Assembly: GCF_900086705.1 (NCBI RefSeq)
Contig: NZ_LT575483.1
Location: forward strand, 3,639,533-3,703,532
Source: Massilibacillus massiliensis
GTDB taxonomy: Bacteria > Bacillota > Negativicutes > FLKF01
Reading direction: 5' to 3'
Length of the DNA: 64,000 nucleotides
Below the pieces are notes generated by a model, which saw only the letters and a list, made by a program, of their open reading frames with translations, was not told the origin of the DNA and did no database searches. Numbering within the stretch: the stretch's first letter is position 1; every line of letters starts with the position of its first letter. The position numbers were made by a program, and so were the translations under genes. Shown here piece by piece: positions 47,119 to 64,000 of the stretch.

Positions 47119-47625
47119 ATGCCAAAGAGAATATATACTACAGAATTAAAGATGAAAATAGTGCAACGTTATCTAAAAGGTGATATTGGACTCAAATCAC
47201 TTTCTAATGAGTATCATGTGAATAGAGGAGATATTCAAAAATGGGTAGCAGCGTATAAAGAACATGGCATTGATGGTCTTTGTACAACTCATAGAACTTA
47301 TACTGGTGATTTTAAGGTTTCTGTCGTAGAATATATGCATAATACAGGTACATCAATTCGCCAAACTGCTGCACATTTTAATATTCCATCTCATCCATCC
47401 ATAAGCACATGGGAGCGTATTTACTATGAGAAAGGCAAAGATGCTCTGTATGAAGAACGCAGAGGAAGATCAAGTAAAATGGGAATAAAAAAACAAAGTA
47501 AAAACATTGAAAAGAATGAAGATCTTTTATTAGAAGTCCAGAGACTTCGCATGGAGAATGAATACCTAAAAAAATTGAATGCCTTAATTCAAAAGCGGGA
47601 AAAATCGGAGAAACCGATAAAGTAG
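47119..47625 (+). CDS. IS3-family transposase OrfA (IS150-type)
   Basis: A 168-residue DNA-binding subunit. There are two helix-turn-helix segments, at about 5-55 (LKMKIVQRYLKGDIGLKSLS) and about 60-110 (FKVSVVEYMHNTGTSIRQTA). A C-terminal leucine-zipper-like region follows (EDLLLEVQRLRMENEYLKKL). In the zero frame the run CTA-AAA-AAA at 47566-47574 gives a canonical A-AAA-AAA slippery heptamer, which would shift a fraction of ribosomes into the orfB frame to make the full transposase. Confidence 0.9.
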   Translation: MPKRIYTTELKMKIVQRYLKGDIGLKSLSNEYHVNRGDIQKWVAAYKEHGIDGLCTTHRTYTGDFKVSVVEYMHNTGTSIRQTAAHFNIPSHPSISTWERIYYEKGKDALYEERRGRSSKMGIKKQSKNIEKNEDLLLEVQRLRMENEYLKKLNALIQKREKSEKPIK

Positions 47626-48470
47626 CTGTCATAACGGAATTAAGGCACAAATATAAGCTGACAGCATTATTAGAACTAGTTAAGATTCCACGCAGCACAT
47701 ACTATTATTATTTGAAAAAATCAAATGAACCTGATAAATATAAAATAATAAAAGATCAAATCATAGCTATTTATCATGAAAATCAAGGTAGATATGGATA
47801 TCTTAGAATCACAACCGAATTAATAAATAGAGGGCATAAAATCAATCATAAAACAGTGCAACGTTTAATGAAAGTGTTGAAAATTAAATGTATGGTAAGA
47901 CTCAAGAAATATCGTTCTTATAAGGGTGAAACTGGGAGAATTGCCCCCAACCTTATCCAGAGAAATTTTAAAACTGATGCACCAAATCAGAAGTGGACAA
48001 CAGATGTAACGGAATTTTCGTTATTTGGCACTAAATTATATCTGTCACCGATTTTGGATATGTATAATAGCGAAGTCATAAGTTATAACATTAGTCAAAG
48101 GCCTGTATTAGGACAAGTGATGGATATGCTAGATAAAGCTTTTGCAAAGATTCCAAATAATACAAATCTTATATTTCATTCTGATCAAGGATGGCAATAT
48201 CAACACAAACATTATCAAAAAAGGCTTAGAGAGAAAGGGATAATCCAAAGTATGTCTCGAAAAGGAAACTGCTTGGACAATTCAATTATGGAAAATTTCT
48301 TTGGGTTACTTAAGTCAGAGCTTTTATATTTGAGAAAATTTAGTTCTATAGAGGAATTTAAAGTTGAATTAGAAAAATATATAGATTACTATAATACTAA
48401 ACGAATTAAGAGTAAATTAAAAGGACTGAGTCCTGTTCAATACAGGCTTCAATCCTCATTAGTTGCATAA
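47568..48470 (+). CDS. IS3-family transposase OrfB (made by -1 frameshifting)
   Basis: DDE integrase domain in the -1 frame relative to orfA. The frame is open from 47562, and the likely product is an OrfAB fusion joined at the slippery run; TTG 47712 is the first codon of a possible free OrfB but has no ribosome site. Catalytic residues are visible in WTTDVTEFS (Asp), LIFHSDQGWQYQ (Asp) and NCLDNSIMENFFGLLKSEL (Glu). The preceding HTH_21-like segment reads YHENQGRYGYLRI. It appears intact. Confidence 0.9.
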   Translation, partial: KKIECLNSKAGKIGETDKVAVITELRHKYKLTALLELVKIPRSTYYYYLKKSNEPDKYKIIKDQIIAIYHENQGRYGYLRITTELINRGHKINHKTVQRLMKVLKIKCMVRLKKYRSYKGETGRIAPNLIQRNFKTDAPNQKWTTDVTEFSLFGTKLYLSPILDMYNSEVISYNISQRPVLGQVMDMLDKAFAKIPNNTNLIFHSDQGWQYQHKHYQKRLREKGIIQSMSRKGNCLDNSIMENFFGLLKSELLYLRKFSSIEEFKVELEKYIDYYNTKRIKSKLKGLSPVQYRLQSSLVA

Positions 48471-49390: not shown

Positions 49391-50290
49391 ATGGATGGGA
49401 ATAATAAGACATATGCATTGTTGCTGACGGCGGTTTTGATTTGGGGAATTCAACCGATCTTCATAAAATTTTTAGTTCATGACTGGTCGCCGGTTATGAT
49501 TACTTGTGGCCGATTTTTCTTGTTTAGTATTATCGTGTTCGCAGTGCTTTACTTACGGCACGATCCGGGATTGATACCGCCGCAAGAGTGCTGGCTGCCA
49601 TTTATTTTCATGGGATTCAGCTTGTTTATTAATAATGTAGCGCAGTTCACTGGACTGCAATATTCAACGGTTATAAATTGTACGTTGATAGCAGCTACTA
49701 CACCTGTAGTTACAGCGTTGATGGCAGCTGTATTTTTGCGGGAACGGCTCAATGTTTTCGCATGGCTGGGTATCGTTATTTCTTTTGCTGGTGTCATAAC
49801 GATTATAAGTCATGGCTCTTTAAATATTATTTTAGGACTGGATTTTGCTTATGGAGATATATTGTTTTTTATCAGCCAATTTTCCTGGACGATTTATTCT
49901 TTACTGGGAGTTCGGGTGATGAAACATATATCTGTTATGGCGGTCACTGCCTGGTCTGGTTTGAGTGCATCGGTACTTACATTATGTTATGGACTGTTGA
50001 CACACCAAGTAAGTGTTCCGGTATTTGCACCAGTTTCATTGGCTTCTTTTCTCTACACTGTTGTGTTTGGCGGCGTTTTAGCGCAGATATTTTGGAATGG
50101 TGGCGTAAAAAATGCTGGCCCTAGTCTGACTTCTATTTTTACAAATATTATGCCGCTTGTAGGTATGATCGGCGGCGTTGCGTTTTTGGGAGAAATGATC
50201 AGTATGGTGGAAATCGGTGGAGCATTGGCAATTTTCGCTGGTGTCTATTTGATGACGCATAGTGAAAGTTTGGGGCAGGCAAGATGTTAA
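49391..50290 (+). CDS. DMT-superfamily transporter (EamA type)
   Basis: A 299-residue membrane protein with ten predicted TM helices arranged as two EamA repeats. The first repeat runs LLTAVLIWGIQPIFIKFLV and ITCGRFFLFSIIVFAVLYL, ending ERLNVFAWLGIVISFAGV. The second starts near GDILFFISQFSWTIYSLLG and ends GEMISMVEIGGALAIFAGVY. Such proteins export amino acids, nucleosides or other metabolites; the substrate cannot be read from sequence. AAGGGGA precedes the ATG. A terminator follows. Confidence 0.88.
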   Translation: MDGNNKTYALLLTAVLIWGIQPIFIKFLVHDWSPVMITCGRFFLFSIIVFAVLYLRHDPGLIPPQECWLPFIFMGFSLFINNVAQFTGLQYSTVINCTLIAATTPVVTALMAAVFLRERLNVFAWLGIVISFAGVITIISHGSLNIILGLDFAYGDILFFISQFSWTIYSLLGVRVMKHISVMAVTAWSGLSASVLTLCYGLLTHQVSVPVFAPVSLASFLYTVVFGGVLAQIFWNGGVKNAGPSLTSIFTNIMPLVGMIGGVAFLGEMISMVEIGGALAIFAGVYLMTHSESLGQARC

Positions 50291-50634
50291 AACAATATAT
50301 TTGTTTAAGAATTTTATAAAAGGTTTTTACCATGGGGATGTTGTAATAAGATTGCAGCATCCTCCTTTTAATTTTCCGTATCTAAATTTTTACTAAACTA
50401 CGTTTTATAGAATAATTTAGATGCTTAAAAGAGGAAGATTCGAATTTTGTTTATCTTATATTTTGCATAGTATTAGCCATATTTATTTAAAATAGATAAA
50501 TCGAAGCATGCAAATTATCCTATAGGGATGATGAAAAAAGAAACAAAGAGAAGTAAAATAAAAGAAGAAATGCGATAAAAGTAAAGTCTTAGAAAATTTT
50601 GTATGGTAATAGGTCAAAAGGAGTGTTAGTTATT
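50291..50634. other. Intergenic region between the EamA gene and allD
   Basis: This 344-base gap contains the terminator hairpin at its left end and then AT-rich sequence, presumably with the allD promoter. No ORF or recognisable riboswitch is seen. The allD Shine-Dalgarno sequence AAAAGGAG is at 50617-50623. Confidence 0.45.
50335..50372 (+). terminator. Terminator after the EamA transporter gene
   Basis: An imperfect stem GGGATGTTGT / GCAGCATCC with a following CTCCTTTTAATTTT tract. Confidence 0.6.
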
Positions 50635-51708
50635 ATGAGTGAGCAAGAGATTGTATTAGTAGACAAAGAAGATTTGCATAAGTTGATTAAGCGTAAGGTG
50701 ATGAAAGCTGGTTTACCAGAAGATCATGCACAAGAACTTGCAAATCACCTTACCTATGCAGATAGTAGAGGCGTACACTCACATGGAGCAGTACGTGTGG
50801 AATATTATTCAGAGCGGATTTCTAAGGGCGGTAGTAATGTAAAACCTGATTTTTCTTTTAAAAAGACAGGACCGTGCACAGGGATTTATGAAGGTGATAA
50901 TGCAATCGGCATGGTTGTAGCGAAAAATGGGATGCTTGAGGCGATTCAAATGGCCAAAGAAAATGGAATTGGCCTTGTTGGTATGCGTAATCTAGGTCAT
51001 TGCGGAACACTTTCCTATTTTCTTAGAATGGCTACAGAAGAAAATATGATTGCGATGTCAATGTGTCAATCTGATCCTATGGTCGTGCCATATGGATCTG
51101 CAGATCCATATTTTGGAACAAATCCGATTGGATTTGCCGTACCTTGTGCTGGACATGCTCCAATTGTATTTGATATGGCCACTACGGTTGGTGCTTGGGG
51201 GAAAATTTTAGATTCTAGGGCAAAAAACAAAGCAATTCCTGAAACTTGGGCTGTTGATAAAGAGGGGCATCCTACGACAGATCCATTTGCAGTTGGCGGC
51301 CTTTTAGCGATTGCAGGTCCAAAAGGTTATGGACTTATGATGATGGTAGATATTTTATGCGGATCTTTACTTGGTGTTCCATTTGGACAACATGTTAGTT
51401 CGATGTATGCGGATCTTTCAGCTGGACGCGGTCTGGGACAGATTCATTTAGTGATCAATCCAGATTATTTCTCCTCGGCTGAGGCATTAAAAAATAATGT
51501 ACGCAAGATGGTAGACGAACTTCATGGTCTTCGTCCTGCAGCTGGCTTTGATAAAGTTATGGTACCGGGCGAATCTTCTGAAGATAAAGCAGAAGCGTAT
51601 GAGAAGAACGGAATTCCAATTGTAAAAGAAATATATGATTATCTTGTAAGCGACGATGTGCATTATAACCGTTACGATGGGAAAAGTGCATTTGCTTCAG
51701 AGAAATGA
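50635..51708 (+). CDS. allD: Ureidoglycolate dehydrogenase (AllD), Ldh2/MDH2 family
   Basis: NAD-dependent oxidoreductase that oxidises ureidoglycolate to oxalurate (oxamate N-carboxamide); 357 residues from ATG 50635. The fold signature of the malate/lactate dehydrogenase type 2 family is clear: YADSRGVHSHGAVRVEYY, GMRNLGHCGTLSYFLRMA, GTNPIGFAVPC, FDMATTVGAWGKIL and GPKGYGLMMMVDIL. AllD versus another Ldh2 member is chosen because of the allantoate/oxamate operon nearby. It is separated from that operon by a chemoreceptor, a hydrolase and the regulator. Confidence 0.85.
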   Translation: MSEQEIVLVDKEDLHKLIKRKVMKAGLPEDHAQELANHLTYADSRGVHSHGAVRVEYYSERISKGGSNVKPDFSFKKTGPCTGIYEGDNAIGMVVAKNGMLEAIQMAKENGIGLVGMRNLGHCGTLSYFLRMATEENMIAMSMCQSDPMVVPYGSADPYFGTNPIGFAVPCAGHAPIVFDMATTVGAWGKILDSRAKNKAIPETWAVDKEGHPTTDPFAVGGLLAIAGPKGYGLMMMVDILCGSLLGVPFGQHVSSMYADLSAGRGLGQIHLVINPDYFSSAEALKNNVRKMVDELHGLRPAAGFDKVMVPGESSEDKAEAYEKNGIPIVKEIYDYLVSDDVHYNRYDGKSAFASEK

Positions 51709-51726
51709 GATAAAGAGGTAGCGTGT

Positions 51727-51763
51727 AAAGGGTCTCAATAGATTGTGAGATCCTTTACTTTTG
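51727..51763 (+). terminator. Terminator after allD
   Basis: The stem AAAGGGTCTCA / TGAGATCCTTT (one G-U pair) is followed by ACTTTTG. Confidence 0.78.
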
Positions 51764-51800
51764 TCTTAAGCAAGTATGATAGTCAAACTTAAGGAAAAGG

Positions 51801-53798
51801 ATGAGGAATATGCTTACTTTACAAAAGAATGGTTTTGGTATTAAAACGAAATTAATTTTAGCTTTTGCCGTAATTTTATTGATCCCTAGTTTATGTATTG
51901 GGTGGTTTGCCTATAAAACTGCATACGATAGAGTTGAAGAAACGATGCTGGGGAATGCAAACGAAAGTGTAGTTATGTTGGATCATATATTAAATCAAGT
52001 GATCGTTGATACGCAAAAAAATGTGGATTTTATGGCTTCAAGGATTGCACTTGGTGGCGTAGGTGCTACACAAGGCGATGAGGATCCAATGATTAGAACG
52101 ATGTTGGATGCTTATAAAAAGACACATGCAGACGTAGAGCTTGCTTCTGTTGGTACGGATAAGGGCGTGTATATGAATTCTCCGGCGAGTGCTGTAAATC
52201 CAGCGGGTTATGATCCAAGAAAACGCCCATGGTATACAATGGCATCTGAGAATAGAAATAAACCAACCGTGATTAATCCTTATATTTCTAGCAATAGCGG
52301 ACAAGTTGTAGTTACAATATCACAAACGGTAAGTGATCAGCATGGTGTCGTTTCTATCAGCCTTTCTCTGCAAGAGTTAGCCAGAATTACAAATGGAATT
52401 AAGGTTGGTAAAGAAGGCTATGCATATATTTTAGATAAAAACGGCAATGTATTGGTACATCCGACGCTGAAACCGGGAACGAAAGCAGAAGGCGCTATTT
52501 TTGAAGAAATGATGAAGCAGAAAAAAGGGATTATGCATTATGAAGCAGACGGTCAAAAAAGATTGGCATTTCTTACAACCAATGAACAAACGGGATGGTT
52601 GATTGGTAGCACGATGGCTGAGTCTGAAATTATTGCCGCTGCAAGACCGATTTTAATAGGAACTTTGAGTGTTGTATTGCTCTTTGTTGTGATTGGCAGC
52701 GTGATTACATATTTTGTTACGAGATCTATTACAAGACCATTGCAAATATTGGTCAATGCTTCAGAACAGATTAGCAATGGCGATTTGCGCGTCAATATTC
52801 CAATTGTATCTCAAGATGAATTTGGTAAGTTGAGCATAAGTTTTAATAAAATGAGTGATTCTCTGCGTGCTTTCCTTAAACAGATGCAACAGACTGGTGA
52901 GCAATTGTCGGCATCAAGTGAACAGCTTTCTGCGAGCTCTAATGAATCGGCGCAGGCGTCTACGCAAGTGGCTGGTTCCATTACAGATGTTGCACATAGT
53001 GTAGAATTGCAATTGAATGCAATCAATGATACTTCTAGTACAATAAAAGATATGTCCCAAAATATTGAGCAAGCAGCTGTTACAACAAAATTGGTATTCA
53101 AGGAGTCCACAAACGCGACCGAAAAAGCTGCTGCTGGTGGAAAAACAATTGAAGAGGCTATCCAGCAGATGGCACAAATTGAGCAAACGGTCATTACTTC
53201 GGCGCAAGTGGTCGAAAAGTTAGGTGACCGTTCAAAAGAAATTGGTCAAATCGTCGATACAATTTCGGGTATTGCAGGACAGACAAATCTTTTAGCCTTG
53301 AATGCAGCGATTGAAGCTGCACGTGCTGGGGAGCAAGGAAGAGGCTTTGCTGTAGTAGCCGATGAGGTAAGAAAACTTGCTGAACAGTCACAAGCCGCGG
53401 CTAAACAAATTGCAAGCTTAATTAATGAAATTCAAAACGATACGGATCAAGCCGTTATTACGATGAATGATGGTACCAGAGAAGTTAAAAAAGGTGCTGA
53501 TGTAGTTGATAGTGCCGGAAAAGCATTCCAGGAAATTGTACTGTTGATTTCACAGGTTTCAGAGAAAGTAAAAGGTTTTTCTGCAGCTACGGATCAATTA
53601 TCGAACGGCAGTCAACAGATCGTGGATGCAATGAGCAGAATTGACGAGATGAGCAAAAAGGTTACAACGGAGGCTGAAATGGTATCTGCTGCAACAGAAG
53701 AACAATCCGCATCTATGCAAGAAATTGCTGCTGCCAGTCAGGTTTTATTGCAAGCTGCGCAAGCGCTTCAAAATGAAGTATATAAATTTAAAGTGTAG
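51801..53798 (+). CDS. Methyl-accepting chemotaxis protein with dCache sensor
   Basis: A 665-residue transmembrane chemoreceptor. TM1 (about 15-37) is followed by an extracellular double-Cache domain (about 40-275) with DPRKRPWYTMASENRNKP, here YDPRKRPWYTMA, and GWLIGSTM near its end. TM2 (about 285-308), a HAMP domain (about 308-362) and a signalling coiled coil follow, whose tip reads GIAGQTNLLALNAAIEAARA. dCache_1 domains often bind amino acids, purines or carboxylates. Its place between allD and the allantoate operon suggests, but does not show, that it senses a ureide or purine-derived compound. Confidence 0.93.
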   Translation: MRNMLTLQKNGFGIKTKLILAFAVILLIPSLCIGWFAYKTAYDRVEETMLGNANESVVMLDHILNQVIVDTQKNVDFMASRIALGGVGATQGDEDPMIRTMLDAYKKTHADVELASVGTDKGVYMNSPASAVNPAGYDPRKRPWYTMASENRNKPTVINPYISSNSGQVVVTISQTVSDQHGVVSISLSLQELARITNGIKVGKEGYAYILDKNGNVLVHPTLKPGTKAEGAIFEEMMKQKKGIMHYEADGQKRLAFLTTNEQTGWLIGSTMAESEIIAAARPILIGTLSVVLLFVVIGSVITYFVTRSITRPLQILVNASEQISNGDLRVNIPIVSQDEFGKLSISFNKMSDSLRAFLKQMQQTGEQLSASSEQLSASSNESAQASTQVAGSITDVAHSVELQLNAINDTSSTIKDMSQNIEQAAVTTKLVFKESTNATEKAAAGGKTIEEAIQQMAQIEQTVITSAQVVEKLGDRSKEIGQIVDTISGIAGQTNLLALNAAIEAARAGEQGRGFAVVADEVRKLAEQSQAAAKQIASLINEIQNDTDQAVITMNDGTREVKKGADVVDSAGKAFQEIVLLISQVSEKVKGFSAATDQLSNGSQQIVDAMSRIDEMSKKVTTEAEMVSAATEEQSASMQEIAAASQVLLQAAQALQNEVYKFKV

Positions 53799-53813
53799 TA
53801 TAAAATGAACGTG

Positions 53814-53857
53814 AAAAAGGGAATGGTGCATGTAACGATGCTGCCATTCCCTTTTTT
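53814..53857. terminator. Bidirectional terminator between the chemoreceptor and hydrolase genes
   Basis: The stem AAAAAGGGAATGG / CCATTCCCTTTTTT with a 17-base loop lies between convergent genes. Confidence 0.9.
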
Positions 53858-53863
53858 TCGTTT

Positions 53864-54727
53864 TTAAGCTTGGAAATTTTCTAGCCACTGTATGATTTTT
53901 GCATAGGTTGATTTTCCTTCGGGATCTTCTAGATTTCGGTCGAAGTCATGCACATCTTTATAAACTGTGATAAGGTGTGCGTTTGGGATACGTTTGCTAA
54001 GTGCTTTGCTTATTCTGAAAGGAACATCAGGATCTAATGTTGCCGCAGCTAATAGGGTGGGGGGCAGAAGTTTCAATTGTTCTTCATCCAATGAATAGGC
54101 TGCAGAACTTTCTTTGCCACAAAGCAGGTTTATCCATGTCCCATCTTGACGCGCTTTAATATAAAGTGAAAAACGTAGATGCATTGGCCCGTAAGTAATG
54201 GGGGAATCCGCAATGATTTTTTCTATGGCGGCATCCGAAATGGTGCCTAGTTTGTTATAGTGCTTACTCGGTGTAGAAAATTCAATTTCGTCAAGTCGTG
54301 TATAACCATATAAACTTATGATTGCCAACGGTAAAACGGCTTTGTTTTGTAGTAATAAAGTATAGAGCATAAAACAGAGATAAGCGCCTGCTGATCTGCC
54401 AAATAAAATGTAATGCTGATTGGTGAGTCCAAGCCGTATAGTTTTGTTTTCCAGGTAATAAGCAAGTGCAGCAAAAGAAGAATCTAAAATTAGTTTTAAA
54501 TTGGCTTCCGGGGCGAATGGATAATCTAAAGCCAGCAGATCATAACCTGCTTCCAAATACATATGGATATAAACTTCCGGCAGATCATCTCTCGTTCCAT
54601 AAAGCAATCCACCACCATGGAAATAGAGAACAGTTATATTTTTACGGTTCTTTTCTGCCTTATATAAATCCATGTTTAAGTTTATATTCTCTTTCGTTGT
54701 AAAACTAAAAGTTTCGGGTTTATTCAC
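53864..54727 (-). CDS. Alpha/beta hydrolase (HGGG / HSL-like)
   Basis: A 287-residue cytosolic hydrolase. The oxyanion motif FHGGGLLYG, the nucleophile elbow FGRSAGAYL and a late acid/histidine pair (DPDVPF and DVHDFD) give the expected triad. GTG 54727 is preferred: GGGAG lies eight bases upstream, and this start overlaps the pucR stop by eight bases, indicating coupling. An upstream TTG (54745) has no ribosome site. Its coupling to a purine regulator suggests a hydrolytic step in ureide use or amide cleavage, but the substrate is unknown. Confidence 0.78.
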   Translation of the reverse strand: MNKPETFSFTTKENINLNMDLYKAEKNRKNITVLYFHGGGLLYGTRDDLPEVYIHMYLEAGYDLLALDYPFAPEANLKLILDSSFAALAYYLENKTIRLGLTNQHYILFGRSAGAYLCFMLYTLLLQNKAVLPLAIISLYGYTRLDEIEFSTPSKHYNKLGTISDAAIEKIIADSPITYGPMHLRFSLYIKARQDGTWINLLCGKESSAAYSLDEEQLKLLPPTLLAAATLDPDVPFRISKALSKRIPNAHLITVYKDVHDFDRNLEDPEGKSTYAKIIQWLENFQA

Positions 54728-56354
54728 TAAGTTTTCTCCCGTCAATTAATTTAAATATTCTTGAAGATATTTGAATTTGGAGTAGTTCTTCCGGATTTAA
54801 AAAATCTATATTTAATAAGTTCTTTATTTTTTCAATTCTGTATCTTACTGTTTTTGGATGAAGAAAAAGTTTCTCAGATGTCAGATTATAGCTTTGATTG
54901 GTATCTAGAAATGTTTTTAGTGTTTCAAATAATAATGGATATTCATTTCTAAAACGAATTGTTTTTGGTGATATAAAACTTTTGAGATTGTCCAGACTTT
55001 TTGGATCTAGGAAAAGCTTGTAGATTCCCAGTTCTTCATAAGGCAGTATTTTATTGGTGTTATGAAATAATCGCAGAACTTTTTGGGTATCTAAAACTTC
55101 GCGGTTCGCGTTAAAAATGCTTGCTTTTTCTACCTTGGAGCTAATGCTTACATAATAATAGAATTCTTTAAATAAGTTGTGCTCCGTTAAGTCATTCATT
55201 ATTTTTTCAATCACGTCTGTAGTAAAGCCGGATTGGCTATGATTTAGGTTGAGAATAAATACGACGCGATCTAATTTTTCGAGAAACACAATATCGCGGA
55301 AGCAGGATTTGAACTTTATTCTAATTTGTCTTAGTGTTTTAGAAATAAAATTCGCACTTAGAATTTTACTCTCATCACGCTGCTGCAAACTTACCAATGT
55401 GATTTGATACATAGCATAACGATGTAAATTCAGGGATTCTAAAACTTCGTCGACATCTTTTTTTTCATACAAACGTCCATTCAGAAGATCATTGATAATA
55501 TTATTTTTTTGATGAAATAAATTTTGCGAGATTACATAATTCCTCAATAATTCTAGTTGTAAAAATTTAACGGCATTTTCTATGACCATAAAATCTTCCG
55601 GACTAATTTGTTCTAATAGTTCATGAATAACTAATTCATAATCGTAATAGCCTAAATGCGGGATACGGACGCGGAGTTGATTGCCAGTAATTTTAGGATT
55701 GGTATGATGATACATGACTTTTTTACGTTCATATTCAAAATGCATGTAATCTTTTGTAGCAACTTCACTTGTACTGAGTATTGTTATCGTTGAAAGCTGC
55801 GCGTTTGTCGTAATTTCCGTTCCTTTTGTTGCATTGATCAGGCTTACATCACGCAAGATCATTTTTTTAAATTCAGCTAAAATTTTGTCCATAGAAGGCA
55901 TTTTTAATGCCAGGCTGGTTAATTCACTGTGCACTTCATAATACTTATTTAGAAGGTTTACATTATTGTTGATGATAGGTCCTAAAATCTCAAGAATGAT
56001 GGATTCATACTTAACATCTTTATTTATCTGGATTAATGGAATCAAGTGCTTGTTACAAAGATCAATGATGATGTTTGGTATCTGAGAAACCAACCGGTCA
56101 ATTTTCATTATAATTGCACTGATTTCTAAATTATGGAGCTTTTCGAAGAATGCACCTAATTCATGATCATTCAAATTTTGCAAGGCAAAAAAACTGGTAA
56201 TAATCACTTCACCAGAGCGTCCCCAATTTGTTATATCCGTTGCCTCAAGTATGTTGACACCTGTTATTTCATTTAAAAGTTGATTTTTACCAGCTAGCAA
56301 TTTTGCTTTTTGAAAGGAATTCATTTTTAATAAATCTTTGATGTTCAAAGCCAT
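54720..56354 (-). CDS. PucR-family transcriptional regulator
   Basis: A 544-residue regulator. The N-terminal PucR domain (about 1-125; LNIKDLLKMNSFQKAKLLAG and GEVIITSFFAL) precedes a CdaR/GGDEF-like middle region. The C-terminal HTH_30 (LKTFLDTNQSYNLTSEKLFL followed by HPKTVRYRIEKI) binds DNA. PucR activates purine-catabolic genes in Bacillus in response to allantoin-type effectors. It is divergent from the fdrA-all operon and coupled to the hydrolase gene. The start at 56354 is supported by GGAG eight bases upstream; the frame from 56429 has none. Confidence 0.9.
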   Translation of the reverse strand: MALNIKDLLKMNSFQKAKLLAGKNQLLNEITGVNILEATDITNWGRSGEVIITSFFALQNLNDHELGAFFEKLHNLEISAIIMKIDRLVSQIPNIIIDLCNKHLIPLIQINKDVKYESIILEILGPIINNNVNLLNKYYEVHSELTSLALKMPSMDKILAEFKKMILRDVSLINATKGTEITTNAQLSTITILSTSEVATKDYMHFEYERKKVMYHHTNPKITGNQLRVRIPHLGYYDYELVIHELLEQISPEDFMVIENAVKFLQLELLRNYVISQNLFHQKNNIINDLLNGRLYEKKDVDEVLESLNLHRYAMYQITLVSLQQRDESKILSANFISKTLRQIRIKFKSCFRDIVFLEKLDRVVFILNLNHSQSGFTTDVIEKIMNDLTEHNLFKEFYYYVSISSKVEKASIFNANREVLDTQKVLRLFHNTNKILPYEELGIYKLFLDPKSLDNLKSFISPKTIRFRNEYPLLFETLKTFLDTNQSYNLTSEKLFLHPKTVRYRIEKIKNLLNIDFLNPEELLQIQISSRIFKLIDGRKLSE

Positions 56355-56489
56355 ACTCCTTTCTCCATTATGTATAAAAAAAACGTATTTTTTATAAGTT
56401 TTATACCAATGATAATGAAAAAAAATCATGATATAATGACGATGATTTTAGATTTAACACAATATTAACATAATAAAGGAGACTTGGAA
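56355..56489. promoter_or_regulatory. Divergent pucR/all operon control region
   Basis: 135 bases between the two divergent start codons. A plus-strand TATAAT (56432-56437) is preceded at 17 bases by only a weak -35, consistent with an activated promoter. The region is AT-rich. PucR binding sites are expected here, but none could be defined by eye. Confidence 0.5.
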
Positions 56490-59400
56490 ATGCTATATAC
56501 GGTAATTAAGAAAAATAATTATCAAGATTCGATCAATCTTATGTTACTTACAAATTCAATTAATACCCTGCATGGTATCACAAAATGTTCAATTATGATG
56601 GGAACTGATGCCAATAAGGATATTCTTAAAAATAGTGGACTTCTTACCGTTGAGGCTGAAAGCGCAGCACCAAGTGATATGATCATTGTCTTAGAAACAG
56701 CGGATGAAAAAAATGTTGAGAATGTTTTGGCTGAGACAGATAAATTTTTAAATGACCTAGCGGTTAAGAAAAAGAAAAACAGCGTTGAAAGTGTAACAAG
56801 CATCGAAGCGGCGATTGAAGAATTGCCGGATGCCAATGTAGCATTATTTTCTATTCCAGGCGAATATGCAGCCGATGAGATTGAAAAAGCGCTTGACCAA
56901 GGTTTACATGTATTTTCCTTTACCGATAATATTTCTATAGAAGATGAAGTCAGACTTAAGAAAAAAGCACATGAAAAAGGACTTTTATTGATGGGGCCTG
57001 ACTGTGGAACAGGCATCATCTCCAGTATTCCGATCGCGTTTACCAATGTAGTAAGACCAGGCAATATTGGTATTGTTGGCGCTTCCGGTACGGGAATTCA
57101 GGAAGTAACTACAATCATTGACCGACTTGGGGGTGGCGTTGTTCATGCGATCGGAACAGGTGGACGTGATTTAAGTGAAGCAGTTAATGCGACGACCGTT
57201 CGTGATGTAATTTTAGGTCTTGAACAACATGATCCTACGGATGTAATCGTTGTTATTTCCAAACCTCCGGCACCGGCAGTTAGAAATGAAATTGTAGAGT
57301 TATTACAAAATGTCAGCAAGCCTGTAGTCGCGATATTCTTGGGTGAGAAACCGGAGCAGCATGAAGGCAATGTGTATTTAGCACATACCTTGGAAGAAGC
57401 TGCGATGATTGCGGTGGATCTTGCGCAAAACTTACCGGTAAAACCGAATTATATGGAAGCAATCGAATATGAAGTGAAAAATCCGTTGCCTACAGAAAAA
57501 ACGGTAAAAGGCTTGTATTCAGGCGGTACGCTTGCTGCTGAAGCAGGCATGTTGATCGCCGAGGCACTCGAACTTGGAAAATTATCAAAAAAAGAAGGCT
57601 ATATACTGAACACAAATGGATATGAAGTCATGGATTTAGGCGATGATATCTATACGCAAGGAAAGCCACATCCGATGATTGATCCAGAAGTTAGAATCAA
57701 TAAAATCAAAGAATATGCAAAAGATGCCAATACGGGTGTTATCCTCTTTGATTGCGTATTAGGGTATGGTTCGCATCCTGATATGGCCGGTGTGTTATCA
57801 GAAGCTATTAAAGGAGCTATAGAAACTGCAAAAAATGATGGAAGAGAGCTTCATTTTGTTGCAACGGTCTGCGGAACGGAATATGATCCACAAAGTTATC
57901 AAAAATCAATAAAAACATTGCAAGAAGCCGGTGTATTGGTGGCCCAAAGTAATGCAAAAGCAGTTAGACTTGCCCTCAAATTAAAGGGAATAGAAGTTAA
58001 AGAAGCTGACAAATACGTAGTAGAAAGAAAAGTAGAAAAGAAAGCCTTACCAAAAGCCAGCGAAAGCATCATGGATCTTTTAAACTCTAAACCTCGTATT
58101 GTAAATATCGGACTTAGCAGTTTTACAGAATCTATTTTGGCATATGGTGGAAGTACCGTACAGTACGATTGGAAACCAGCGGCAGGTGGAAATAAAAAAC
58201 TGATTAAAATTTTGAATCAACTTTCTAAGATGGAAGAAATAGAACAAAGCAATCAAGAAGTCATTGACAAAATGAAGAGCTCACAGCCTTTCTTGGTTGA
58301 CGTAGTTCCGGCAAAATCAGTGATTGAAGCTTTAAATGATAAAGTGTTGCTTCACGCAGGTCCGCCAATTGAATATAAAAATATGACGGGTCCGATGAAA
58401 GGATCTTGTATTGGTGCAGTGTTGTTTGAAGGCTGGGCCGAAGATGAAGCGAGTGCGAAGGCTTTACTAGAAAGTGGAGCAGTCAAATTTACGCCATGCC
58501 ACCATGTAAATGCAGTAGGTCCTATGGGCGGCATCACTTCAGGGAATATGCCGGTATTCGTTGTGAATAACAAGCTGGATGGTTCAGTTGCTTATTGCAT
58601 CATGAATGAGGGAATCGGCAAAGTGCTTAGATTCGGTGCTTATTCCGAAGAAGTAATTACCAGATTAAAATGGATGAGAGATTCTTTGGCGCCGGTATTG
58701 TCTAAAGCGTTACAACGAAAAGAAGGTGGATTAAACATCAACGTTCTCATTGCAAAAGCAATTACAATGGGTGACGAGTTCCATCAAAGAAATATAGCAG
58801 CTTCGTTGATCTTCTTGAAAGAAATCACCCCATTCATCGTAGAACTTGATATAGACGAGAAAGAGAAGTACAGCGTAATAAAATTCTTGGCAGATACAGA
58901 TCAATTCTTCTTAAATATTATGATGGCAGCAGGTAAATCCATCGTCGATTGTGCAAGAAAGGTTACGCGTGGTACGGTCGTTACGACCATGTCGAGAAAT
59001 GGAGAAAATTTTGGTGTACGCATCAGCGGTATGGGGGATGAATGGTTTACTGCACCGGTTAATACACCAAATGGTTTATATTTTACAGGGTATGCAGAGA
59101 CGGATGCGAATCCGGATATCGGCGACAGCGCAATCACAGAAACAGTTGGTGTCGGTGGTATGGCAATGGTAGCTGCGCCCGGCGTTACCAGGTTTGTCGG
59201 CGCAGGCGGTTTTGATGATGCATTAAAAGTTTCGAATGATATGGATAAGATTTGTATTGCAAATAACTCCAATTGGAGTATTCCTACTTGGGATTTCAAA
59301 GGTGCTTGCTTAGGCATTGATGCAAGAAAAGTAGTGGAAACTGGCATCGAGCCATTGATTAACACAGGAATTGCGCATAAAAATGCTGGCGTAGGTCAGA

Positions 59401-59495
59401 TTGGAGCAGGAACTGTACGTGCACCGCTTGCTTGTTTTGAGAAAGCAATTGTTGCTTATGCTAAAAAACTAGGAATTTATGTTGAAGAAGACTAA
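56490..59495 (+). CDS. allFG: FdrA-YlbE fusion (AllF-AllG), oxamate carbamoyltransferase subunits
   Basis: A 1001-residue protein that joins two polypeptides encoded separately in E. coli. Residues of about 1-515 are FdrA-like, related to succinyl-CoA synthetase: GIVGASGTGIQEVTTIIDRL, GTGGRDLSEAV, GLYSGGTLAAEA and DCVLGYGSHPDMAG. After a charged linker, residues of about 545-1000 are YlbE/DUF1116-like: HAGPPIEYKNMTGPMKGS, TPCHHVNAVGPMGGITSGN and MSRNGENFGVRISG. FdrA, YlbE and YlbF are reported as the oxamate carbamoyltransferase AllFGH (recalled from the E. coli literature). ATG 56490 has AAGGAG eight bases upstream. Confidence 0.9.
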   Translation: MLYTVIKKNNYQDSINLMLLTNSINTLHGITKCSIMMGTDANKDILKNSGLLTVEAESAAPSDMIIVLETADEKNVENVLAETDKFLNDLAVKKKKNSVESVTSIEAAIEELPDANVALFSIPGEYAADEIEKALDQGLHVFSFTDNISIEDEVRLKKKAHEKGLLLMGPDCGTGIISSIPIAFTNVVRPGNIGIVGASGTGIQEVTTIIDRLGGGVVHAIGTGGRDLSEAVNATTVRDVILGLEQHDPTDVIVVISKPPAPAVRNEIVELLQNVSKPVVAIFLGEKPEQHEGNVYLAHTLEEAAMIAVDLAQNLPVKPNYMEAIEYEVKNPLPTEKTVKGLYSGGTLAAEAGMLIAEALELGKLSKKEGYILNTNGYEVMDLGDDIYTQGKPHPMIDPEVRINKIKEYAKDANTGVILFDCVLGYGSHPDMAGVLSEAIKGAIETAKNDGRELHFVATVCGTEYDPQSYQKSIKTLQEAGVLVAQSNAKAVRLALKLKGIEVKEADKYVVERKVEKKALPKASESIMDLLNSKPRIVNIGLSSFTESILAYGGSTVQYDWKPAAGGNKKLIKILNQLSKMEEIEQSNQEVIDKMKSSQPFLVDVVPAKSVIEALNDKVLLHAGPPIEYKNMTGPMKGSCIGAVLFEGWAEDEASAKALLESGAVKFTPCHHVNAVGPMGGITSGNMPVFVVNNKLDGSVAYCIMNEGIGKVLRFGAYSEEVITRLKWMRDSLAPVLSKALQRKEGGLNINVLIAKAITMGDEFHQRNIAASLIFLKEITPFIVELDIDEKEKYSVIKFLADTDQFFLNIMMAAGKSIVDCARKVTRGTVVTTMSRNGENFGVRISGMGDEWFTAPVNTPNGLYFTGYAETDANPDIGDSAITETVGVGGMAMVAAPGVTRFVGAGGFDDALKVSNDMDKICIANNSNWSIPTWDFKGACLGIDARKVVETGIEPLINTGIAHKNAGVGQIGAGTVRAPLACFEKAIVAYAKKLGIYVEED

Positions 59496-60339
59496 ACAAC
59501 AGCAAAATAGAAAGGCAAAGAGTAATCTATTGCCTTTCTATTTAAAGGATTACTGCGTTGGTAAAGTGCACAGTAAATTTAATCAAGGGCTGAATTTGCA
59601 ATTTGAGGATCGTCTGATTTATATCGGCCGCAGCGGAACGCCGTTATCTGCATTTGGATTCAATATAGAAGAAGAAAAATTGCTGCATATACTTAAAACT
59701 GTGAAAATTGATGATATGGTAATCCGGAAAGAGGATCATTTCATTTTTTATAGTTTTGCGGAAATTATAAAAATTTCTAGTGAAGAAGCAGAAGAAATTG
59801 ATTTGAAAATTCCTCAAATAAAATGTAAGGCTGAAAAAATTTCTGATACTGCATTATATAAATACCTAACCAATATACAGTTTGAACAATCAATTGGCAT
59901 TGAGTTGAATGAGAAAACGAAGAAATATGTAGTTTTGTTATCAACGTCTGATAAAGCCGATTTAAATTTAAATTTGGACATCATAAGATTTTTTACTGGC
60001 AGAGGTAAAGGATTGACGCCTAGTGGCGATGATATTCTCCTGGGATTTACGCTATGCATTCACTTATTTGGGGACTTCCCTCAGTGGAAACAAATGCTTG
60101 CATTTGCGGTTACCAATGAATCGACGACGATGATAAGTGTGGCATATCTTAATGCGTTATTGCAAGGGTATGTGAGTGAATCTTGTATACAGCTTGTAAA
60201 GTTATTAGATCATGGAGAAACAGAGCAAATACAAAAAAAGGTAGAACAAGTCAAGTCATTCGGACATACATCAGGAAGTGATACCTTGTTTGGATTTTTA
60301 CTAGGATTAAATTTTTTAATACATCAATGGGAGGGATAA
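59479..60339 (+). CDS. allH: AllH / DUF2877 protein (YlbF-like), third oxamate carbamoyltransferase subunit
   Basis: A 286-residue DUF2877 protein. The signature FFTGRGKGLTPSGDDILLGF is at about 168-187, and SFGHTSGSDTLFGFLLGL lies near the C-terminus. The start at 59479 overlaps the end of the fusion gene by 17 bases, with AGGA just upstream, so translation is coupled. It lies where ylbF follows fdrA-ylbE in E. coli, supporting an AllFGH complex made here from only two chains. Confidence 0.87.
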   Translation: MLKKTKQQQNRKAKSNLLPFYLKDYCVGKVHSKFNQGLNLQFEDRLIYIGRSGTPLSAFGFNIEEEKLLHILKTVKIDDMVIRKEDHFIFYSFAEIIKISSEEAEEIDLKIPQIKCKAEKISDTALYKYLTNIQFEQSIGIELNEKTKKYVVLLSTSDKADLNLNLDIIRFFTGRGKGLTPSGDDILLGFTLCIHLFGDFPQWKQMLAFAVTNESTTMISVAYLNALLQGYVSESCIQLVKLLDHGETEQIQKKVEQVKSFGHTSGSDTLFGFLLGLNFLIHQWEG

Positions 60340-60342
60340 TGC

Positions 60343-61566
60343 ATGGACATTATGTTGAATGAAGTTCAAGAGACAATGGAATGGTTATCTTCAATTAGTG
60401 ACGAACAAGGACCAGGCACGACACGGCTTTTGTATTCTCCAAGTTGGTTAAAGGCACAAAACGATTTGAAAGCGCGTTTTGAAAAATTAGGAATGGAATG
60501 TCATTTTGACGGTGTAGGCAATCTATACGCTACGTTAAAAGGAACGGAGTTTCCTGAAAAGACAATCGCTACAGGTTCTCATGTGGATACCGTTGTCAAA
60601 GGTGGAAAGCTGGATGGGCAACTTGGAATCTTCGGTGGGTATCTTGCAGTAAAACATTTGCTTGAAAATTTCGGTAAACCGAAAAAAAGTATTCAAATTA
60701 TTTCGATGGCAGAGGAAGAAGGCTCTCGCTTCCCGTATGTTTTCTGGGGCAGTAAAAACATTTTTGGTCTGGCAAAAAAAGAAGAAGTCGAGTCGATCAA
60801 AGATGCGGATGGTATCGGTTTCGTGGAAGCTATGCGTAAATGTGGTTTTGATTTTATTGAGAGTCATAAAGAACGTACAGATATTGAAGCTTTTATTGAA
60901 CTGCATATCGAACAAGGAAATTTCCTTGAAGAGGAAAATTACACAGTTGGCGTAGTAAACTCAATTGTTGGGCAGAAACGCTATAATATTACGCTCAAAG
61001 GTGAAGCTAACCATGCGGGTACGACACTCATGCGATATCGCAAGGACACCGTTGAATGTATGGCACGCATCATAACGCATTCGATTGATAAGGCAAAAGC
61101 TGTAGGGGATCCATTGGTCTTGACCTTTGGTAAAGTTGTACCAAAACCGAATACAGTGAATGTTGTTCCCGGTGAGACTTTATTTACGATGGATTGCCGG
61201 CATACAGATGAAACACTTCTGCAAGCTTTCACAACGGCACTTGAAGCTGATATGAAAGAAATCGCTGAAAAAAGCGGCATTGCAATTGAGATCGATAATT
61301 GGATGAATGAAAAACCTGTATCCATGGACAAAGAAGTTGTTGCAATTGTTGAACGCGTTTGCCAAGAGAAGAAAATGAACTATAAAGTAATGCATAGTGG
61401 TGCCGGTCATGATTCACAAATATTTGCACCGCGTGTTCCTACAGGCATGATCTTTGTTCCAAGTATCAAGGGGATTAGCCATAATCCAGCCGAGGACACG
61501 AAAGTCGAAGATCTTCGTGAAGGAATTAAAACGCTGGCTTATACGCTACACGAACTTGCTTATTAA
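60343..61566 (+). CDS. allC: Allantoate amidohydrolase-type M20 hydrolase (AllC)
   Basis: A 407-residue Zn/Mn-dependent amidase that releases ammonia and CO2 from allantoate to give ureidoglycine. Metal ligands are visible in TGSHVDTVVKGG, the bridging Asp in GKLDGQLGI, the Glu pair in AEEEGSRF, the ELHIEQGN histidine and the C-terminal SGAGHDSQIFA. The dimer-loop motif is NHAGTTLMRYRKD. GGGAGGG precedes the ATG. It is in the operon between allH and the MFS carrier. Related carbamoylases (beta-ureidopropionase, hydantoinase-linked) share the fold; the neighbours favour allantoate. Confidence 0.9.
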   Translation: MDIMLNEVQETMEWLSSISDEQGPGTTRLLYSPSWLKAQNDLKARFEKLGMECHFDGVGNLYATLKGTEFPEKTIATGSHVDTVVKGGKLDGQLGIFGGYLAVKHLLENFGKPKKSIQIISMAEEEGSRFPYVFWGSKNIFGLAKKEEVESIKDADGIGFVEAMRKCGFDFIESHKERTDIEAFIELHIEQGNFLEEENYTVGVVNSIVGQKRYNITLKGEANHAGTTLMRYRKDTVECMARIITHSIDKAKAVGDPLVLTFGKVVPKPNTVNVVPGETLFTMDCRHTDETLLQAFTTALEADMKEIAEKSGIAIEIDNWMNEKPVSMDKEVVAIVERVCQEKKMNYKVMHSGAGHDSQIFAPRVPTGMIFVPSIKGISHNPAEDTKVEDLREGIKTLAYTLHELAY

Positions 61567-61590
61567 TATAAGTATGAAAGGATGTTTTTT

Positions 61591-62859
61591 ATGAACACAC
61601 AAGCCTTAACAAAATCATATCCGGAAAACTATTGGAAACGACTCGTATTTACGTTCTGCATGGGCTGGACAATTATCTGGATTTACAGAGCGATGCTTTC
61701 GCCGATTTATCCGGAAATTCAAGCTACAATAGGACAACAAACAAACGCTGCTATGGGTATTATTGCATCATGTTATTTTTTTGGTTACACGGCACTACAG
61801 ATTCCGTCTGGTTATTTAGTTGATAAATTTGGGCAGAAGAAAGTCTTGATTCCCGGTTTTATCATTTTTGCTGCTGGTGTTTTCAGTATTGCGTCGGCAA
61901 CATCCATTATGCCGATTTATATCGGAGCGGTATTAGCCGGTGTTGGTTGCGGAACGTATTATGGATCTGCTTTTTCCTTGACATCACAACATGTACCGCA
62001 GGAAAAGAAAGGTTTACAAACTGCAATTGTAAACAGTGGCTCTGCACTTGGGATGATTCTTGGTATGACGGGATCAAGTTATTTCGTTAAAACGATGGGA
62101 TTGCCATGGCAGACTATGGTGATTATTTCTGGGTGTCTGTTGATCTTCCTTGTTTTATGGTTCTTCTTTGTTATCATTGAACCAAGTAAAGTTGCACCTT
62201 CAGCTGCAACGGCGAGCAATAAAGCAGAAGCATCTGCTGAGGTGGTAGAAGAATCTAAAGGTTCAATGTTCCGTCCTTCTTTGGTCACTTGCTATTTCTT
62301 GTATTTCACAACTTGCTATGCCTACTATATGATCGTAACTTGGCTGCCAAAATTTCTTGAAGCTGAACGTGGTATTACAGGTGGTATGATCGGTCTTACT
62401 GTATCGATGATTGCTGTGACTGCTGTACCGGGTGCTTTATATTTTGCCAACTTGTCAGATAAAAAACGTGGCAAGAAAGCGGCGATTATTCTTTTCCTTG
62501 AAATTGCTGCTTTTGTCTTGATCGCAGTTTCTATGTTTGTACCGGATACAACAAGCCTCGTTGTTGTTTTACTTTTATACGGTTTCTTAGGAAAAATGGC
62601 CGTAGATCCAGTTTTGATTTCCTATGTGTCTGACCAAGCTGATAAGAAAACGATGGCAACAACATTGGGAACTTTTAATTTCTTCGGAATGTCATCTTCT
62701 GTTGTAGCTCCTGCTCTTACGGGGTATATCATGGATCAAACTGGTTCAGGCGTGTGGGGCTTTTATCTTGGGGCTATTTTATTACTCATTGGTGCAGTTG
62801 TATTCTATATGACGAACTCCAGAACAAAGAGTCTAGATAAAGAAGGTGCTTCCGCGTGA
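61591..62859 (+). CDS. MFS transporter, probable ureide/allantoate uptake
   Basis: A 422-residue major facilitator with 12 TM helices. The motif A region GYLVDKFGQKKVLI lies between TM2 and TM3, and a long acidic cytoplasmic loop (about 208-230) divides the halves. The ATG at 61591 is nine bases after AAAGG; the ATG at 61582 abuts that site. It lies inside the all operon, and allE overlaps its end. By context it should import allantoate, ureidoglycolate or allantoin; the superfamily alone does not say. Confidence 0.82.
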   Translation: MNTQALTKSYPENYWKRLVFTFCMGWTIIWIYRAMLSPIYPEIQATIGQQTNAAMGIIASCYFFGYTALQIPSGYLVDKFGQKKVLIPGFIIFAAGVFSIASATSIMPIYIGAVLAGVGCGTYYGSAFSLTSQHVPQEKKGLQTAIVNSGSALGMILGMTGSSYFVKTMGLPWQTMVIISGCLLIFLVLWFFFVIIEPSKVAPSAATASNKAEASAEVVEESKGSMFRPSLVTCYFLYFTTCYAYYMIVTWLPKFLEAERGITGGMIGLTVSMIAVTAVPGALYFANLSDKKRGKKAAIILFLEIAAFVLIAVSMFVPDTTSLVVVLLLYGFLGKMAVDPVLISYVSDQADKKTMATTLGTFNFFGMSSSVVAPALTGYIMDQTGSGVWGFYLGAILLLIGAVVFYMTNSRTKSLDKEGASA

Positions 62860-63638
62860 GTTATCTGAATGATGTTGTCGGATATAGAAAAGACCTTTTA
62901 CTCAATCGATCCATCGTTAAGAAAAATTATGCAGTGCTTGAGCCGGATGGTTTAGTGAAAAATGTGATTCCCGGTTTTGAAAATTGTGATGTTACGATTC
63001 TCGGATCGCCAAAACTGGGCGCTAGTTTCGTAGATTATCTTGTTACGATTCACGCCGTTGGAAAGAATGAATTAGGCTTTGGCGAGGCAGATATCGAAAC
63101 TTTATTCTATTTAATAGAAGGCAGTTTGGAAGTGAAAGCTGATGAAGCGTCCTATTCCTTGGCTAAAGGGGGCTTTATTTACTGCCCGCCAGGTACGAAA
63201 CTTTATTTTCAGAACAAAAGCGGTAAGGAAGTAAAAGCGTTTATGTATAAACGCCGTTATACACGATTAGAAGGAACTCAGCCGTATGTTGTTACAGGAA
63301 ATACAGAAGATATGGAATGGACAATTTATGAGGGTATGGAGGATGTTTTAGTCAAAGACTTTTTACCAAAAGATTTGGCTTTTGACTGTAATTTTCATAT
63401 TCTTAGTTTTAAACCGGGTGCATCACATGGCTATATTGAAACCCATGTGCAAGAACATGGTGCTTATTGCCTGAGCGGACAAGGCATGTATAATCTGGAT
63501 AATGAATGGATTCCAGTGAAAAAAGGTGACTATATTTTTATGGGCGCGTATTGTTTACAGGCTTGCTATGCTGTGGGACGCGATGAATCTTTTGCATATG
63601 TCTATTCAAAAGATTGTAATCGTGATGCAATACTTTAA
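62856..63638 (+). CDS. allE: (S)-ureidoglycine aminohydrolase
   Basis: A 260-residue bicupin enzyme that hydrolyses ureidoglycine to (S)-ureidoglycolate and ammonia in a manganese-dependent reaction. Two cupin folds are visible: the first near ETLFYLIEGSLEVKADE, and the second with metal ligands in HGYIETHVQEHGAYCLSGQG. The GTG start overlaps the MFS stop as GTGA. It supplies the AllD substrate and completes the AllC-AllE-AllD sequence. Confidence 0.94.
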   Translation: MSYLNDVVGYRKDLLLNRSIVKKNYAVLEPDGLVKNVIPGFENCDVTILGSPKLGASFVDYLVTIHAVGKNELGFGEADIETLFYLIEGSLEVKADEASYSLAKGGFIYCPPGTKLYFQNKSGKEVKAFMYKRRYTRLEGTQPYVVTGNTEDMEWTIYEGMEDVLVKDFLPKDLAFDCNFHILSFKPGASHGYIETHVQEHGAYCLSGQGMYNLDNEWIPVKKGDYIFMGAYCLQACYAVGRDESFAYVYSKDCNRDAIL

Positions 63639-63680
63639 ATTTGTCGAAGACAGGTAAGATAGATAAAGAGGAGAATCGAA

Positions 63681-64000
63681 ATGGGCAAACAAGTCGTAAT
63701 TGCTTTAGGCGGAAATGCGCTGGGCAACACTCCGATTGAGCAAAAAGAAGCAGTGATGGCTGCTGGAAAACATATTGTCAGTCTCGTTAAAGATGGCTAT
63801 AAAATCGTTATTGTCCATGGGAACGGACCGCAAGTTGGCATGATTAATTTGGCGTTTGAACTTGCATATAAAGAGAATTCAAAAGTTTCCGCGATGCCAT
63901 TTGCTGAATGTGCGGCGATGAGTCAAGGGTATATTGGATTTCATTTACAAAATGCTTTGCAAAATATGTTCGTTGAACAAGGGATGACGACACATGTTTC
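63681..64000 (+). CDS. allK: Carbamate kinase (3' end outside window)
   Basis: ATP-forming kinase that uses carbamoyl phosphate from oxamate carbamoyltransferase to phosphorylate ADP. Only the first 106 codons are in the window. The N-terminus is MGKQVVIALGGNALGNTP, followed by VIVHGNGPQVGMINLAFELA, as in ArcC and AllK (YbcF). GAGGAG lies before the ATG. It is last of the visible operon, 42 bases after allE. Its substrate link to AllFGH is by analogy with E. coli. Confidence 0.92.
   Translation, partial: MGKQVVIALGGNALGNTPIEQKEAVMAAGKHIVSLVKDGYKIVIVHGNGPQVGMINLAFELAYKENSKVSAMPFAECAAMSQGYIGFHLQNALQNMFVEQGMTTHV

Follow-up and report, generated by a model that had tools for sequence, protein, structure and literature searches.

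A fused AllF-AllG protein of Massilibacillus massiliensis, with a third module at its joint, as the likely single-chain core of an oxamate carbamoyltransferase

The genes for oxamate (oxamic) carbamoyltransferase were unknown from the 1960s to 2024, and the question of how its subunits are arranged is still unsolved (PMC11326118). Oxamate carbamoyltransferase activity was measured for the AllFGH proteins of Escherichia coli; the composition of the enzyme could not be determined by the authors, and AllF and AllG washed off when only AllH was tagged (PMC11326118). This loss from the tagged subunit leaves it doubtful how stable the holoenzyme is. The question arises again at a gene in a 64,000-nucleotide stretch of Massilibacillus massiliensis DNA (the window), which an initial annotation described as a natural fusion of FdrA and YlbE (AllF and AllG) into one protein of 1001 residues. 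Natural fusions of this kind fix part of the subunit arrangement, since the termini that are joined must meet and, as that annotation had argued, a 1:1 ratio of AllF to AllG follows from their being one chain in the organisms concerned. A single-chain form is also a simpler protein for structural and kinetic studies than three co-expressed subunits.

The gene (Table 1) is an uninterrupted reading frame on the plus strand, running from an ATG at 56490 to a stop codon at 59493-59495 and encoding 1001 amino acids. A Shine-Dalgarno-like aaaggag lies just 5′ of the ATG, and Met1-Leu2 are invariant across 66 fused sequences. When both halves were searched with profiles, as the annotation had proposed, each scored above its cut-off: the NCBIfam FdrA model NF004760 matches residues 1-578 (683 bits, cut-off 433, E 2.6e-205) and the Pfam AllG family PF06545 (DUF1116) matches residues 665-880 (321 bits, cut-off 27, E 3.4e-96). 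The junction had been placed at about codons 515-545. The frame is intact there and at residues ~578-582, with no stop or frameshift at either place, but it is at ~578-582 that the seam relative to the E. coli genes falls. Residues 515-545 instead comprise the linker and start of a further module, M, and coincide with the position of the gene boundary in paralogues.

Table 1. Features of the fused gene and its neighbourhood, in window coordinates
Feature	Position	Strand	Evidence or remark
allD, ureidoglycolate dehydrogenase	50656..51708	+	TIGR03175 above cut-off
PucR-family regulator, divergent from fused gene	54720..56429	-	Family match
Whole fused allF-M-allG gene, stop included	56490..59495	+	Frame, translation, upstream site
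AllF N-terminal segment, residues 1-99, outside 3dmy alignment	56490..56786	+	FdrA model, PDB alignment, conserved start
F part, residues 100-497, FdrA/AllF core	56787..57980	+	CoA_binding (190-285), Ligase_CoA (342-496)
F-M linker, residues 498-527	57981..58070	+	Weak sequence conservation, constant length
Module M, residues 528-580, beta-alpha-beta-alpha	58071..58229	+	M profile, AlphaFold2; in relatives a free gene, or attached as AllF tail or AllG head
G part, residues 581-1001, AllG/DUF1116	58230..59492	+	PF06545 at 665-880, 3clq alignment
allH (DUF2877), 17-nt overlap with fused gene	59479..60339	+	PF11392, 89.8 bits, cut-off 25, E 2.2e-25
allC, allantoate deiminase	60343..61566	+	TIGR03176 above cut-off
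MFS transporter	61582..62859	+	Domain/family match
allE, (S)-ureidoglycine aminohydrolase	62856..63638	+	TIGR03214 above cut-off
Carbamate kinase (allK-like), cut by window end	63681..64000	+	Complete at L133 6214-7152

Judged from its sequence, the fused protein is composed of three parts (F, M, and G), not two. Comparison of the junctions revealed one stretch that closes AllF in pairs of the E. coli type and opens the DUF1116 protein in the paralogous ones. A profile HMM of this shared piece (window residues 528-580, built from fused proteins) was run on six-frame segments of all loci, and M was found in four arrangements. In the tree set, F, M, and G are fused in 79 rows (one genome counted twice), M is the tail of AllF in 18 rows, as in E. 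coli, and M is the head of an AllG-like protein, such as E. coli YahG, in 50. The fourth arrangement, in which a gene of 53-79 codons encodes M by itself, accounts for 22 G rows, drawn from 19 loci. The HMM matches every locus that bears F, the match at Nonomuraea L203 being weak and divergent (an M-like G head, E 0.63). With the same HMM, M was not detected in six loci that carry G without F (L142, L181, L189, L201, L202, and L206).

The free M genes have the properties of functional coding sequences. A start codon is present (the start listed is the first possible one), often with a purine-rich site ahead of it; pairs of these genes give pN/pS values of 0.06-0.26, indicative of purifying selection; and the invariant residues are those common to M in the other arrangements. 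The independently built NCBIfam FdrA model matches free M with its last ~53-55 positions (E 8.5e-15 to 2.5e-12), and profile-profile comparison among the M forms gives probabilities of 99.6-99.9%, on which grounds we rejected chance similarity. There is no Pfam family for M. The joint is, on this evidence, a mobile third module that many genomes encode as a gene of its own, a finding that is new as far as we have checked. The two-subunit account of the initial annotation thus stands in describing a real AllF-AllG fusion within an allantoin operon, and needs amendment in that the parts number three and that fusion is found widely.

What M does is suggested by its attachments. We lean toward the view that M is a previously unrecognised third core piece of about 50 residues, free-standing in many genomes of the window's phylum, which forms a bridge from F to G and has been re-attached repeatedly, with the AllF/AllG and YahF/YahG boundaries of E. 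coli on opposite sides of it. A place between F and G, where M would help form a shared interface, is the simplest reading, given that M may be joined covalently to F, to G, or to neither. It would also explain why evolution has tolerated M joined to either neighbour, free, or joined with both in one chain.

The main competitor, which we regard as a good deal less probable, holds that M is a mere detachable subdomain of F without a role at the F-G interface, its changes of attachment reflecting neutral fission and fusion at a flexible linker. The occurrence of M with F, and its apparent absence from the six G-only loci, are indeed compatible with M being no more than a detachable part of F, and the poor conservation of the F-M linker points the same way. 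This reading sits uneasily, however, with the joining of M to G instead of F in so many of the sampled loci, with the purifying selection on the free gene, and with the length constraint on the M-G seam. From the conserved G567 to P600, 66 fused proteins have 33-35 residues, and the E. coli AllF tail and AllG head placed end to end have 33 between the same landmarks. Fusion therefore adds no spacer at this seam, which argues that the termini of AllF and AllG are adjacent in the split enzyme too; we infer that F and G are likewise 1:1 in split enzymes. The F-M linker is poorly conserved in sequence yet keeps a constant length, with A491 and P535 44-45 residues apart in 66 sequences.

Structure prediction gives M a beta-alpha-beta-alpha fold. 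In the AlphaFold2 model of the fused chain (mean pLDDT 85.9, pTM 0.79), M consists of a strand (536-540), a helix (545-551), a strand (555-559), and a helix (569-579), and the first helix of G begins directly afterwards at 582. The same fold of M is predicted in an M-G paralogue, L198 (pLDDT 92.2, pTM 0.90). Sequence comparison with the PDB aligns 3dmy (E. coli FdrA) to residues 99-578 and 3clq (a DUF1116 protein) to 581-990, so that two separate proteins cover F-M and G, respectively, whereas the window has them in one chain; the same comparison found no structure of a complex. The 3dmy chain begins near window residue 79 and aligns only from 99, and its sequence suggests that the conserved N-terminal segment (Table 1) is probably absent from the crystallised FdrA. 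Residues nearly invariant in all arrangements of M include H394, H622, H671, H765, R767, D879, and E884 (window numbering).

Gene boundaries in this family have moved repeatedly. The AllG tree requires at least 11 changes among the four arrangements, a rough figure given a quick tree and long paralogue branches. In a tree of F, M, and G together the fused proteins do not form one clade; forcing them to do so costs 147 log units (AU p 4e-53), and a single clade of all fused forms was rejected. A history of three fusions is as short as one with a single fusion and two fissions. Within Paenibacillus, one locus (L076) is fused and its sister (L069) is split. Among split orthologue pairs, 12 of 13 are in the same frame (the exception is E. 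gilvus), a count to be read with the fact that the ranking of loci favours in-frame pairs, for which reason we dropped in-frame spacing as proof of fission. The fdrA and ylbE genes of E. coli (L153, 10666-10677), Salmonella (L158), and Photobacterium (L155) share a frame with 9-12 nt from stop to start. This close spacing is suggestive of past fission or of easy fusion, the sampling of frames elsewhere being biased.

Other departures from the common gene orders were seen. At L152, L172, and L177, separate F, M, and G genes have a further G gene, different from the first, in tandem behind them, and some enzymes of this type may use two different G subunits. The order is reversed at L183 and L184, with M-G ahead of F, and more than 1 kb lies between M (or F-M) and G at L166, L185, and L188.

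The surroundings of the fused gene bear on its function. The genes for carbamate kinase, AllD, AllC, AllE, and AllH all lie in a cluster with it. The overlapping allH that the initial annotation had placed after it is borne out by a start at 59479 and a PF11392 match (Table 1). A class-V aminotransferase gene is also present downstream, beyond the window end and near the carbamate kinase gene. No Rfam elements were found in 50000-64000. The AllG tree places the window in a clade with E. coli AllG, away from the paralogues, and the window groups with the E. coli and Salmonella AllF-AllG proteins with a clade support of 100. The E. coli AllFGH system is like the window in that its F, M, and G are orthologous, its cluster also includes AllH and carbamate kinase, and its neighbours belong to the allantoin pathway; it differs in that AllF-M and AllG are two genes, in the same frame and 9 nt apart, where the window encodes one chain.

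On this comparative evidence, the likely product of the gene is the oxamate carbamoyltransferase core as a single AllF-M-AllG chain, which would work with AllH and in which M would bridge F and G. By orthology with the E. coli enzyme, oxalurate would react with phosphate on the fused chain and AllH to give oxamate plus carbamoyl phosphate, from which the downstream-encoded carbamate kinase would make ATP. As a guess, F and M may handle phosphate and carbamoyl phosphate and G the ureido acid, because M is tied to F and because in Azospirillum and Caballeronia the neighbours of G-only genes include genes of oxalurate catabolism. At L202 (6001-7212) and L206 (5992-7188), G genes lacking both F and M lie beside genes for hpxZ ('oxalurate catabolism'), amidases, and xanthine-dehydrogenase-like subunits, and G alone may act there on an oxalurate-like compound. 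Module M helps to show how a little-understood enzyme is put together. Given the stand-alone M genes, paralogous systems rebuilt or annotated from FdrA and DUF1116 genes only would probably lack a needed piece.

A same-family carbamoyltransferase might instead act on another ureido compound, such as ureidoglycine or a pyrimidine-derived ureido acid, rather than on oxalurate. Many split paralogues lie beside genes for ring-opening amidohydrolases, cysteine hydrolases, xanthine permeases, and carbamate kinases, neighbours so varied that specificity in the family probably varies as well. In addition, the best allantoinase-like protein of this genome (G000:C6:3937739-3939016, L208) scores 273.9 bits, below the family cut-off of 357.85, leaving allantoinase unconfirmed and the top of the allantoin pathway uncertain. 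We nevertheless judge another substrate improbable here, since the window belongs to the same clade as the E. coli enzyme, with the paralogues branching elsewhere, and AllD (which makes oxalurate), AllC, and AllE adjoin the fused gene.

Databases suggest a different activity again. The public annotation of the fused protein, as for Enterococcus faecalis WP_002355249.1, is 'acyl-CoA synthetase FdrA', a name that hides the fusion. The Pfam domains CoA_binding and Ligase_CoA are present, and residues ~100-293 weakly resemble the alpha subunit of succinyl-CoA synthetase, the alignments with the E. coli subunit ending at its chain residue 236, ahead of the phosphohistidine region. However, the succinate-CoA ligase models score far below cut-off, no ATP-grasp Pfam match is found in the fused protein, and the neighbours examined belong to other families. 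With carbamoyltransferase activity measured for the E. coli orthologue (PMC11326118), an acyl-CoA synthetase is very improbable. The fused protein has no match to the OTCace Pfam domains of the classical transcarbamylases (ATCase and OTCase), in agreement with PMC11326118.

In at least 75 other loci, complete chromosomes among them, the same fused frame occurs with 58-88% identity. This conservation, together with the constant linker lengths, led us to reject two readings as scarcely conceivable, that errors of sequencing or assembly created the fusion and that it is a local, functionless accident. The survey of fused and split forms that had been proposed was made with one genome per species; among the best 80 loci, nearly all of which match the whole query, 71 are fused and 9 split, in a sample biased toward forms close to the query. 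Fused forms were seen in Bacilli, Clostridia, Erysipelotrichia, Coriobacteriia, relatives of the same class, and one Leptotrichiaceae MAG (Fusobacteriia). The AllG domain is present in 14 of 100 genomes of the window's class, and a frame of ~1000 codons in 6 of these 14, the window's genome included. By this sequence record the fusion is a widespread, common form of a known enzyme family and not a local curiosity. A literature search limited to open-licence papers found none that discusses the fusion or module M. The organism of the original biochemistry, Streptococcus allantoicus, appears in the taxonomy under Carnococcus allantoicus alone, and no sequence for it turned up.

Two known systems are close for comparison. 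The E. faecalis protein (L157) is 70% identical to that of the window and resembles it in length (1003 aa), in its F-M-G order, in an overlapping DUF2877 gene, and in having carbamate kinase and AllD near; its annotation gives no hint of AllG. E. coli YahF-YahG and plasmid-borne fdrA-DUF1116 pairs belong to the same family and also have a DUF2877 protein and carbamate kinase near, but, unlike the E. coli-type orthologues of the window, M heads their DUF1116 protein and is not the FdrA tail. Split pairs of this type (fdrA and M-DUF1116) with carbamate kinase were found on conjugative plasmids (IncA, IncK2/Z, and IncP) at L156, L205, and L207, adjoining ring-opening amidohydrolase or cysteine hydrolase genes and suggesting a possible use of other ring-derived ureido compounds.

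Around allD in the window lie genes for a chemotaxis receptor with a Cache sensor (51801-53798) and an EamA transporter (49391-50290), both possibly tied to allantoin sensing. Beside the allantoin region, adjoining helix-turn-helix and integrase-like frames at 47119-48470 resemble an IS3-type transposon.
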